Source of the DNA: Candidatus Rokuibacteriota bacterium
GTDB taxonomy: Bacteria; Methylomirabilota; Methylomirabilia; Rokubacteriales; CSP1-6
Assembly (NCBI GenBank): GCA_023248995.1
Contig: JAHFDN010000015.1
Span: 1 to 63,268 of the forward strand
Direction of reading: 5' to 3'
Length of the DNA: 63,268 nucleotides
The notes beneath the pieces were generated by a model. It worked only from the letters and a program-made list of their open reading frames with translations. It was not told where the DNA came from and made no database searches. A program made the translations under genes and the position numbers. Shown piece after piece: positions 48,622-55,701 of the stretch (position 1 is its first letter; each line of letters begins with the position of its first letter).

Positions 48622-49860
48622 ATGCTGCGAGTGAAACGAAGTGCCGCCAGCGCGGTGGCCGGGTTCGGCCTGCTGGTCGCTTCCGTCATCCTGCCCGCCC
48701 GGGCGGAGCAGCAACCCCCGCAGCCCTTTGCTCCCGACTGGGCCATGTTCGCGGGCGGGAAGGTCTTCGCGGAGAAGGGATGCGGAAAGTGTCACGCTCT
48801 TCGGGGAATCGGCGGGGGAGTCGGCCCTGACCTCGCTCGGATCCAGACGGGGACGAGCTTTTTCGAGCTGGGCGCTGACATGTGGAACCACTTGCCCCGC
48901 ATGGGCGCCAAGATGCTCGAGGCGGGAATCCAGCGCCCGACGCTCACGTCCACTGAGGTATCGAACCTGATCGCCTTCCTCTTCACCGTCCAGTACTACG
49001 ACGCCCTCGGCGACCCGAAGGCCGGCGAACGGCTCTTCGCGGCCAAGGGGTGCGTTCAGTGCCACGAGGTCGGCGGCCAAGGCGGGCGCGTCGGCCCGGG
49101 TCTGGACTTCCTCAAGCGCGCCAACTCCCCCGTGCTCGTCGCTGCGGCCATGTGGAACCACGGCCCGGAAATGGCCGAGGCCATGAAAGCCAAGGGGATC
49201 GCCCGGCCCACCTTCCAGGGACAGGAGCTGCTGGACATCATCGCGTACGTCGTGGCGGCCGCCAAGGACGCCGGCGGGGAAACGGCGCAGGTCGTGCCCG
49301 GAACTCCCGAGCGCGGCGGGAAGCTCTTCACGGAGAAGCGGTGCGTCGTCTGCCACCGGGTCGGCGGCAAGGGCGGCTCCGTCGGCCCCGAGCTCGGCCG
49401 GCGCGGCCACCACGTGAGCCTCACCCAGTTCGTGGCCCTCATGTGGAACCACGGGCCGGCCATGTGGGCGAAGATGAAGGAGCGGGGGATCCAGGTCCCC
49501 CGACTTACGGGGCAGGAGATGGCCGACATCGTCGCGTACCTGTACGTTTCCCGGTATTTCGATCAGCCCGCCATCAGCCGCGTAGAGGGTCAGCAACTCG
49601 TCCGGACCAAAGGCTGTCTCACCTGCCACTCCGTCAATGGGAAGGGCGGAAAGATCAGCGCCGACTTTGCCACCTCCAAGCTCGTCGGCTCACCGGCCAG
49701 CCTGATCGCGGGGATGTGGAACCACGGCCGCTACATGGAGGCCCAGGTTCAGAAACAACAAATCCCCTGGCCGCTTCTCACCGGCCAGGAGCTGGCCGAT
49801 ATCTCAGCGTACCTGGCCTCGATCTCGAAGGGCGGTGCCCTGAAGCAGCCGGCCAAGTAG
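48622..49860 (+). CDS. Tetraheme cytochrome c of the tandem 'WNH' family
   Basis: A 412-residue exported protein with the most regular version of the repeat. Heme sites are at C54 (CGKCH), C144 (CVQCH), C241 (CVVCH) and C332 (CLTCH); WNH tripeptides at about 88, 178, 275 and 366. Three of the four follow WNHxPxM; the last reads WNHGRYM. Between heme and WNH is a glycine-rich turn with GPDL or GPEL in the first and third domains. The protein is monocistronic. The strict periodicity suggests a rod-like arrangement of four hemes, suited to carrying electrons across the periplasm. Confidence 0.88.
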   Translation: MLRVKRSAASAVAGFGLLVASVILPARAEQQPPQPFAPDWAMFAGGKVFAEKGCGKCHALRGIGGGVGPDLARIQTGTSFFELGADMWNHLPRMGAKMLEAGIQRPTLTSTEVSNLIAFLFTVQYYDALGDPKAGERLFAAKGCVQCHEVGGQGGRVGPGLDFLKRANSPVLVAAAMWNHGPEMAEAMKAKGIARPTFQGQELLDIIAYVVAAAKDAGGETAQVVPGTPERGGKLFTEKRCVVCHRVGGKGGSVGPELGRRGHHVSLTQFVALMWNHGPAMWAKMKERGIQVPRLTGQEMADIVAYLYVSRYFDQPAISRVEGQQLVRTKGCLTCHSVNGKGGKISADFATSKLVGSPASLIAGMWNHGRYMEAQVQKQQIPWPLLTGQELADISAYLASISKGGALKQPAK

Positions 49861-50027: not shown

Positions 50028-50462
50028 ATGCGAGTTCCTCGCTACTGGTGGCTGGCCGTCCCCATTGCAATCGTGATAGGAGGGGTTGTGCTCCTGGGTC
50101 GAGTAGCAGCGCCCCCACCCCCGGTCTCGACAGGCCAGCCCACGTTGTCATCAAAGGCAATCACCCCGGCCGTGGCGCGCCGGGAGACCCGGCCCACGCT
50201 CGACCCGGCGCTCTTCGTCGGCAAAGCGAGGCTCGCCCACCAGATCGCGCGCGAAATCCCCGACACCCTCGATCAGCTCTACTGCTACTGCGAGTGCGAC
50301 AAGCACCTGGGCCACAAGAGCCTTCTCTCCTGCTACACCGACGGCCACGCCGCCACCTGAGACATCTGCATGGACGAGGCGCTGGACGCGTCTCGCATGG
50401 TGAAGGCGGGGGATCCGGTGGCGAAGATCCGGGCGGAGATCGACCGCAAATACGGCCGATGA
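50028..50462 (+). CDS. PCYCGC-family exported protein, probable selenoprotein (in-frame UGA, Sec111)
   Basis: Read through the TGA at 50358-50360, the gene encodes 144 residues. An N-terminal helix (YWWLAVPIAIVIGGVVLLG) exports or anchors the protein. The conserved body YCYCECDKHLGHKSLLSCY ... DGHAAT is followed by U-DICMDEALDASRM and KIRAEIDRKYGR. Members of the PCYCGC family have Cys where the UGA stands, giving a CxxC that is UxxC here. Codons after the UGA continue family-like sequence. The extended stop overlaps the next start by four bases (ATGA), as elsewhere in this operon, and a hairpin lies at the right distance. Stopping at the TGA would leave a 98-base gap and cut the motif. Redox or metal-thiol chemistry is likely; the exact role is unknown. 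Confidence 0.82.
50375..50395 (+). promoter_or_regulatory. Candidate bacterial SECIS hairpin
   Basis: CGAGGCGC pairs with GCGTCTCG (eight pairs, one G-U) around the loop TGGAC. The loop starts 23 bases after the UGA and has G at its second position. This fits the known bacterial SECIS rule of a short stem with G in the first two loop positions about 16-37 bases downstream. Confidence 0.65.
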
Positions 50463-52405
50463 TCATTCGCCTGCTCGGGGCCGCCCTCCTCCTCTTTCTC
50501 CCCGCCGCGGCGGCGGCTCACGGCGAGCACGGCTCGGCCAAGCCTCTCGGGGAGACGAGCGTCGTGACGGTTCAGGGGTATCAGCTCGAGCTCCTGAGCC
50601 ACCCGAGCCCCTTGGCCGTCGGCCAGGAGAGCCACGTGGTCGTCAAGGTCTTCAAGAACTCTCCCCTGACGCCTGTGTCCGGCGGCACGGTGTTCATCGG
50701 CTTGGCCGCCTCCGGCGCTCCGTACGATCTCCGGCCGGCCCCGGAGGAAGTCTGGGCGGGCAGCTACGCCGTCGGGGTGATTCCCAGGCGGAGCGGCGCC
50801 CACCAGCTTCGCGTGATCCTCGAAGAGCTCGAGGGACGCCACTTCCACCCGCCCCTGACCGTGGACTTCCACATTGCCATCGGGAGGGCACCCGGCCTCG
50901 GGGTGGCCGTCTGGACGCTGCTGGCGCTGGTGAGCGGCGTCGCCGCCTTGTCTCTCTACGGCGTGGCCCTCCGAGCGCGGATCGCGCGTCCTGGCGAGGG
51001 TGCTCTCAACCTCCTGGAGATCCCGTGGCTCCGCCGACTCCTGACCTCCCCGGCCCTCCAGCCGTCACTGCAGATCCCGCTGCTCCTGCTCATGGGGATC
51101 GTGGTGTTCGTCGGATTCGCGGACATCCAGGACGGCGGCGTCAACCTCGCGACCAAGCTCACCTGGACGATCTGGTGGGCCGGGATCATCTTCACGTTCC
51201 TGCTCATGGGGCGCGTCTGGTGCCTGGCCTGCCCGTTCGGGGCCCTGAACGAGTGGACCGCCCGCCTCACAGCGCCGCTGCGCCGGCTCCCCAAACCCTT
51301 CAGGAATATCTGGTGGGCCACCGGGATGTTCGTCCTCCTGACATGGGCCGACGAGCAGCTCGGCGTGGTGCGCTCGCCCCGGGTCACGGCCTGGATCGTG
51401 CTCTTCTTCGCCGCTCTGGCGGTGGCCGTCGGGCTCTTCTACGAGCGCCGGAGCTTCTGCCGCCACCTCTGCCCGATCGGGGGTCTCATCGGGATCTATT
51501 CCATGACGGCGCCGGTGGAGCTGCGCGCGAAAGACACCTCGGTCTGCGCGGCCGACAGGGAGAAGTTCTGCTACCGCGGCAGCGAGGCGGCCGTCGGGTG
51601 TCCGATGTTCGAGTTCGTGCCCGCCATGAACCGGAACAACTACTGCACCCTCTGCCTCCAGTGCGTCAAGGACTGCTCGCGCGACAACCTGGTGCTCCGC
51701 CTTCGCGCCTTTGGCAAGGACCTCTGGGCCTCCGGCCGCTGGCTCCTCGACGAGTCCTATTTGGCCGTCGCCCTAGTCGGACTCACCCTCATCGTGACAG
51801 CCCAGATGCTGACCGCCTGGCCCGCATGGATGTCGACCCTCGCCCGCTGGCTCCCTCTCGGGGTGCGCAGCGAGCTGAAGCCGGTCACCTATCTGGGGCT
51901 CGTGGAGTCCGCCGTCCTCCTCGGCGGCGCCCTCGTGGCGGTGCCGTTACTGATCCTCGCCGGCGCCGCACTCGCCGACAGGCTTGCCACACCCAACCGC
52001 CTCGGGCTGAGGCGGACGTTGGTCATCTTCGGCTACATGTTCATCCCGGTGGGGCTTGCCATGCACCTCGCCCACAACCTGGCCCACCTGCTCCTCGAGG
52101 GCGGCGGGATCGTCCCCGTCGTCCAGCGCGCGGTAGCGCTCTACACCCCGTTCTCCCTGGGCGAACCCGACTGGCAGGTTTCTCCGCTCGCTGCCGAGCC
52201 GGTCGTGGCGTTCATCCAGATGACGTTGCTCGTCGGTTTCTTCGTGCTCTCGCTGGTGGCCGGGCATCGACTCTCGCTCCGAGCGTATCCCGACCCTCGG
52301 ACCGCGAGCCGGGCCCTCGTCCCATTGGCCTTCCTAGCTTTCATCTTCACCGTGGCAGGCATCGTGCTGCTCAACCAGCCGATGGGCATGCGCCACGGGA
52401 TGTGA
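50459..52405 (+). CDS. Polyferredoxin-type membrane protein (NapH/NosR/CcoG-like) with N-terminal periplasmic domain
   Basis: A 648-residue inner-membrane electron-transfer protein. After the signal (MIIRLLGAALLLFLPAAAAA) comes HGEHG and an immunoglobulin-like FixH/YtkA-type domain to about residue 140, then several transmembrane helices. The cytoplasmic loops carry the NapH-type motifs WCLACPFGALNEW and SFCRHLCPIGG and a ferredoxin-like cluster (YCTLCLQCVKDCSRDN). Further cysteines in CAADREKFC and GCPMF could ligate another cluster. Such proteins deliver electrons from the quinone pool or ferredoxin to periplasmic acceptors. Its ATG overlaps the Sec-extended stop of the gene before, arguing for a functional unit. 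Confidence 0.85.
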   Translation: MIIRLLGAALLLFLPAAAAAHGEHGSAKPLGETSVVTVQGYQLELLSHPSPLAVGQESHVVVKVFKNSPLTPVSGGTVFIGLAASGAPYDLRPAPEEVWAGSYAVGVIPRRSGAHQLRVILEELEGRHFHPPLTVDFHIAIGRAPGLGVAVWTLLALVSGVAALSLYGVALRARIARPGEGALNLLEIPWLRRLLTSPALQPSLQIPLLLLMGIVVFVGFADIQDGGVNLATKLTWTIWWAGIIFTFLLMGRVWCLACPFGALNEWTARLTAPLRRLPKPFRNIWWATGMFVLLTWADEQLGVVRSPRVTAWIVLFFAALAVAVGLFYERRSFCRHLCPIGGLIGIYSMTAPVELRAKDTSVCAADREKFCYRGSEAAVGCPMFEFVPAMNRNNYCTLCLQCVKDCSRDNLVLRLRAFGKDLWASGRWLLDESYLAVALVGLTLIVTAQMLTAWPAWMSTLARWLPLGVRSELKPVTYLGLVESAVLLGGALVAVPLLILAGAALADRLATPNRLGLRRTLVIFGYMFIPVGLAMHLAHNLAHLLLEGGGIVPVVQRAVALYTPFSLGEPDWQVSPLAAEPVVAFIQMTLLVGFFVLSLVAGHRLSLRAYPDPRTASRALVPLAFLAFIFTVAGIVLLNQPMGMRHGM

Positions 52406-54519: not shown

Positions 54520-55701
54520 ATGACCCTGGCCGTGAGGTGGGCAGTCGTCGCCGTTCTCGTGCTGCTCCTCTGGCCTCTCCAGCCTCTGCTCGCCCAGCCG
54601 CTCTTCAGCCCGACCCAGGATCCGCTCGCCGGCTCGCGCGTGTTCGGGACGAAGGGATGTGCCAAGTGTCACCCGGTCAACGGCGTGGGCGGCAAGATCG
54701 GCCCTGACCTCGGCCGCATCCCGCGCGCAAGGTCCTTTTATGACCTCGCGGCCGCCATGTGGAACCACCTCCCCCGGATGGCGGAGCGGATGCGGGACTT
54801 CGGGATCGCCCGCCCCCGGCTGGATCCGCAGGAGACCGCTGACCTCATCGCGTTTCTCTACACGCTGAACTACTTCGATCCCCCCGGCAAAGTCCAGGCC
54901 GGCCGGCGACTCTTCACGGAGAAGAAGTGCATCGCCTGCCATCAGGTGGGCGGGGTCGGCGGGGTGGTCGGCCCGAACCTCGACTTTCTCAAGCAGTTCG
55001 GCTCCCCTATCCTGATCGCGGCCGAACTGTGGAACCACGGCCCGGCCATGGCCGAGGCGATGCGGGCCGGGGGAATCGAGCGTCCCACCTTCAAGGACTC
55101 CGAGTTGCGCGACCTGATCGCCTACCTCAAGTCCGCCTCGCCCGCCCGGACGGAGGAGCCGCTCTACGTGCTGCCCGGCCGCGCCAATCAGGGGCGCCGC
55201 CTCTTCGTCGAAAAGCGCTGCCTCCAGTGTCACAGCGTTCGGGGACAGGGGGGCCGGGAGGGACCGGACCTGGCGGAACGGCAGCTCCAGCGCAGCCTGA
55301 CCCAGTTCGCGGCAGCCATGTGGAACAAGGCGCCGGCGATGATGGAAGCCATGACGGCCCGGGGAATCGCAATCCCCCAACTCCGGGCCGACGAAATGGC
55401 CGACCTCGTCGCCTACCTCTATGCCGTCCAGTATTTCGGCGAACCGGGCGATCCGAAGAAGGGCCGCCAGCTCGTGGCGGACAAGGGATGCCTCGGCTGC
55501 CACTCGGTGGACGGAGCGGGCGGCAAGGCGGCGAGCGACCTCGCCCGGGTGAAGGGCCTCGACTCTCCGGCCACCGCCATCTCCGCGATGTGGAACCACT
55601 CGTTGATCGCCGAGCGCCGGAAGGGCGCGTGGCCTCAATTCACTCCCGAAGAGATGGCGCACCTCGTGGCTTGGCTCCAGCTCCTGGAGCGAACCCGATG
55701 A
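54520..55701 (+). CDS. Tetraheme cytochrome c of the tandem 'WNH' family
   Basis: A 393-residue exported protein (signal VAVLVLLLWPLQPLLA) with heme sites CAKCH, CIACH, CLQCH and CLGCH and WNH elements after each; the third is MWNKAPAM. It is the closest relative of the protein at 28720-29907: both begin the mature part with PLFSPTQDPLAGSRVFG-type sequence and share the WNK exception. It starts the cytochrome-bc-type operon and overlaps the nonaheme gene (ATGA-type). The ribosome site is GGGGAGGACG. The duplication suggests that this family links both quinone-oxidising complexes to one periplasmic pool. Confidence 0.88.
   Translation: MTLAVRWAVVAVLVLLLWPLQPLLAQPLFSPTQDPLAGSRVFGTKGCAKCHPVNGVGGKIGPDLGRIPRARSFYDLAAAMWNHLPRMAERMRDFGIARPRLDPQETADLIAFLYTLNYFDPPGKVQAGRRLFTEKKCIACHQVGGVGGVVGPNLDFLKQFGSPILIAAELWNHGPAMAEAMRAGGIERPTFKDSELRDLIAYLKSASPARTEEPLYVLPGRANQGRRLFVEKRCLQCHSVRGQGGREGPDLAERQLQRSLTQFAAAMWNKAPAMMEAMTARGIAIPQLRADEMADLVAYLYAVQYFGEPGDPKKGRQLVADKGCLGCHSVDGAGGKAASDLARVKGLDSPATAISAMWNHSLIAERRKGAWPQFTPEEMAHLVAWLQLLERTR

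Follow-up and report, generated by a model that had tools for sequence, protein, structure and literature searches.

A predicted selenoprotein of the known CYCXC (OS_HP4) family in a Rokubacteriales genome

A 2026 review (PMC13188914) lists a 'CYCXC family protein (hypothetical protein OS_HP4)', placed in PF13798, with a UxxC motif and one selenocysteine (Sec), and mentions 63 selenoprotein genes predicted in one Methylomirabilota assembly. The bacterial SECIS (bSECIS) model given in the same work sets a loop of 3-9 nt, a stem of 4-16 bp and a G within the first two loop positions, together with a spacing of 16-37 nt and an MFE of -7.5 or below (PMC13188914). The family also has a curated NCBIfam model, NF041379, named 'CYCXC family (seleno)protein'. 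The window, by which is meant the whole 63,268-nucleotide stretch of DNA that was analysed, contains a gene that was compared with these described systems. Its features are as follows.

50028..50462, + strand: predicted selenoprotein gene of the CYCXC (OS_HP4) family; 144-residue product with Sec as residue 111 and an N-terminal hydrophobic anchor; PF13798 34.2 bits, NF041379 132 bits
50283..50297, + strand: CYCEC cysteine cluster, with C86, C88 and C90 unchanged across 42 aligned relatives
50358..50360, + strand: in-frame UGA, probably read as selenocysteine, at the first position of UxxC; every family match listed for the phylum has TGA, and homologues from elsewhere have Cys
50375..50395, + strand: predicted bacterial SECIS hairpin, CGAGGCGC-TGGAC-GCGTCTCG, loop start 22 nt past the UGA; stem codons synonymously frozen
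50459..52405, + strand: next gene, overlapped through ATGA, a membrane protein with a Fer4_5 domain, weakly NapH/MauN-like (below cut-offs)

The start codon, ATG 50028, is preceded by the ribosome-binding site AAGGAGG. The original prediction, made from the DNA letters alone, held that a UGA interrupts the frame of a PCYCGC-family protein, that the extension beyond it is family-like and that the stop of the extended frame overlaps the next gene as ATGA. All three points were borne out. TGA 50358-50360 interrupts a PCYCGC-family frame, which after it is open for 34 codons (the UGA counted) and ends at TGA 50460-50462, overlapping the downstream gene's ATG at 50459. The Pfam PCYCGC match of the read-through product, above its cut-off of 25 bits, spans residues 76-143 and hence both sides of the TGA. 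PCYCGC was the sole domain listed by the Pfam scan, and the CxCxC cluster and the downstream UxxC are both present in the protein. Two related genes, at 48622-49860 and 54520-55701 of the window and each carrying about four domains of the cytochrome c type, lie on either side of the selenoprotein region, which suggests that the gene sits within a respiratory gene cluster.

On NF041379 (cut-off 90 bits) residues 54-142 of the read-through protein matched positions 1-89 of the 90 in the model. The protein from Olavius Delta 1 reaches 131 bits with this model, and TGA occupies the corresponding column there too. The original prediction knew of no described Sec form of this family, a claim that fails against the name of NF041379 and the listing of OS_HP4 in PMC13188914. 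Its reading of Sec at the UGA, a UxxC motif, a SECIS hairpin and PCYCGC membership was upheld, and the part that fell was the novelty of the Sec form. Given the NF041379 match and the OS_HP4 listing, the window gene would add a new member to a selenoprotein family that is already known.

Named relatives were obtained by scanning a sequence collection with the family alignment; those nearest to the host are Candidatus Rokuibacteriota records. PCYCGC matches were found in 70 of the 95 genomes of the phylum, and a survey of TGA against TGC in sister genomes, which had been proposed as a check, returned an in-frame TGA in every family match listed. Alignment with PCYCGC homologues, another proposed check, gave 106 U and 23 C at one and the same column among 129 family members. 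The U forms come from Rokubacteria, Methylomirabilis, Nitrospirota and several Thermodesulfobacteriota; C forms at that column are found in many other 'Deltaproteobacteria', in Pyrinomonadaceae and in others. Other phyla carry Cys where the window gene has its UGA, in agreement with the predicted exchange of UxxC for CxxC. On the tree of the 129 members, which is built on few columns and leaves many forks open, six Sec/Cys changes are needed against 21.7 in shuffles, and at least three of the six are forced by well-supported branches. The protein sequence downstream of the TGA is conserved across phyla, and the pattern of in-frame TGA in relatives is far beyond chance. One PCYCGC gene (L035, G009:C48) has two in-frame TGAs and an altered Cys cluster, CYCGLEG; it is possibly decaying.

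The original prediction had also described an 8-bp stem with a TGGAC loop downstream of the UGA. This hairpin was found at a spacing of 22 nt, with a 5-nt loop and an energy of -12.4 kcal/mol, and it lies within all of the published bSECIS limits. Folding 50358-50420 freely, as had been suggested, gave the identical hairpin, with a total energy that is ordinary (z -0.36). As the free-fold z-score was uninformative, the hairpin was judged against a synonymous-codon null and by the conservation of its codons. An equally good hairpin occurs in only 2% of synonymously recoded versions. Four stem codons that are four-to-six-fold degenerate (GCG, CTG, GCG and TCT) are identical in 18/18 cases, against 0/17 invariant among the comparable columns outside the stem. 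Among the relatives, a hairpin of -4.5 kcal/mol or below accompanies the U form in 98% of cases and the C form in 13% (p = 3e-12, which is indicative only, because related sequences are not independent). Nearly all the U-form hairpins have a spacing of 21-23 nt, and this position is constant while the stem sequence varies by lineage (GAGGCGC.., GGAGGCCC.., TACGC.., CATCACG..). The case for the hairpin is one of position and conservation rather than of energy.

The closest Cys forms are one gene with a complete hairpin (L120, 5001-5381) and one with a partial hairpin (L119, 3247-3537). These remnants could be the fossil of a recent Sec-to-Cys change.

The host genome, which is in 57 contigs and 97% complete, was searched for selA, selB, selC and selD, as had been recommended, and all four are present: tRNA-Sec with anticodon UCA (70.9 bits), SelB (380 bits), SelA (593 bits), which adjoins SelB, and SelD (347 bits). 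The frame of SelD (L211, 1285-2496) itself has a UGA as Sec codon, in ACAGUASK. Judged on its sequence, the window gene is almost certainly a genuine selenoprotein of the known CYCXC (OS_HP4, PF13798) family, and we infer that Sec is actually inserted into its product.

A mechanism can be proposed in which SelB and tRNA-Sec would recode UGA 50358 when the ribosome encounters the hairpin that lies 22 nt further on. The product would be a small, helical, envelope-anchored protein with UxxC as a redox pair in addition to the CxCxC cluster. Its chemistry would most likely be extracytoplasmic and involve thiols or metals; within complexes of respiration or of cytochrome maturation, it may reduce copper(I) or thiols or hand them on.

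The structure predicted for the family is helical, and its domain is modelled with good confidence (mean pLDDT 84). Searching solved structures by sequence gave no match, and a fold search against the PDB (Foldseek) gave none at E 0.001. In relatives the neighbouring genes encode an HMA-type P-ATPase, CusB-like and AcrB-family efflux proteins, YtkA, TlpA/AhpC-TSA, DsbD_TM and CcmH (the loci counted are not all independent, some contigs having been reached in two ways); the Bacillota Cys relatives adjoin genes for a P-type ATPase, a four-helix copper-binding protein and a multicopper oxidase. From these neighbours an extracytoplasmic thiol/selenol protein for copper handling or cytochrome assembly may tentatively be suggested, the role being uncertain because neighbourhoods vary between lineages.

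A variant of this role, and a rather unlikely one, is that the protein is a CcmH-like thiol reductant for cytochrome c maturation and not a copper protein. The Olavius Delta 1 gene adjoins ccmH and a DsbD_TM (CcdA-like) gene, CcmH ranks second in the PDB fold search, weakly (E 4.9), and comparison of profiles with hhalign aligned UxxC to the CxxC of CcmH, again weakly (43% probability). The fold and profile similarities are, however, both under the usual thresholds, and many members are adjoined by copper or heavy-metal genes instead. The extracytoplasmic thiol/selenol role in copper handling or cytochrome assembly is the one favoured here.

The host genome carries a second PCYCGC gene (L009, 1423-1851; G000:C4:30284-30628) with one TGA, at UxxC. 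It is flanked by SCO1-like and TlpA-like genes, labelled so from reading the sequences without a profile search, and falls within a separate clade that is all-Sec in the sampled tree. Members of this second branch that were tested on NF041379 scored 53-73 bits, under its cut-off. Relatives of L009 in the plasmid collection include Bacillota 'PCYCGC motif-containing (lipo)proteins' with Cys at the site. They also include TRD_RS14940 of the cultured species Thermomicrobium roseum (plasmid NC_011961.1; L216, 3375-3830), whose annotation ends at 573321, at its TGA. From the TGA the frame runs on as UGICIDITRDVM, continuing for 45 residues, and it has a hairpin, CATCACG-CGTGA-CGTGATG. This TGA resembles a Sec codon that is served by a SECIS element. 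No tRNA-Sec above cut-off was found on the plasmid, the only part of T. roseum searched. Taken together, the longer PC(F/Y/T/M)CGC proteins, which have an insert before UxxC and include L009 and the T. roseum protein, probably form a distinct Sec-using branch that the curated selenoprotein model fails to capture and that at least one public record truncates at UGA. Both branches appear to be fixed for Sec in the sampled Methylomirabilota.

The public record of TRD_RS14940 also bears on how the TGA of the window gene is to be read. Were that TGA an ordinary stop, the protein would have 110 residues and the frame downstream would be decay or chance. Annotation with table 11 would end the gene there, just as the public annotation of the T. 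roseum gene ends at its TGA. This is very improbable, as the downstream frame is conserved at the protein level across phyla, the frame of the Cys homologues has no interruption and the hairpin accompanies the U forms. A sequencing or assembly error hiding a true TGC or TGT might be suspected in a fragmented assembly, but the listed matches with TGA come from many independent assemblies and the long form has its TGA in a plasmid record that is complete and comes from a cultured species, which leaves error a negligible prospect. Genome-wide reassignment of TGA, for example to Trp or Gly, for which no support was found, can equally be set aside, since the gene's own stop at the ATGA overlap is TGA 50460-50462, tRNA-Sec and SelB are in the genome and the aligned residue is Cys.

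With the TGA read as Sec, the PCYCGC/CYCXC proteins would be selenoproteins throughout a largely uncultured phylum, and annotation still cuts some members of the family at UGA. The family also offers a clean Sec/Cys series, including the two Cys genes in which the hairpin survives wholly or in part, as material for the study of Sec loss.

Among known systems, the N-terminal domain of CcmH (PF03918) resembles the window protein in having two helices and an (R/K)YG motif after its CxxC; the similarity is weak, as the hhalign probability indicates, and the CYCXC cluster is absent from CcmH. The Cys forms of PF13798 in Bacillota have in common with the window protein the Cys cluster, the CxxC/UxxC pair and the C-terminal helices. 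Unlike it, they have Cys for Sec, a lipoprotein signal and, ahead of CxxC, an insertion about 10 residues long. With the CYCXC protein of NF041379 in Olavius Delta 1 (OS_HP4), the window gene shares both the UxxC column and the distance of the hairpin from the UGA, whereas the loop is TGGAC in the window gene and AGTTA in the Olavius copy.
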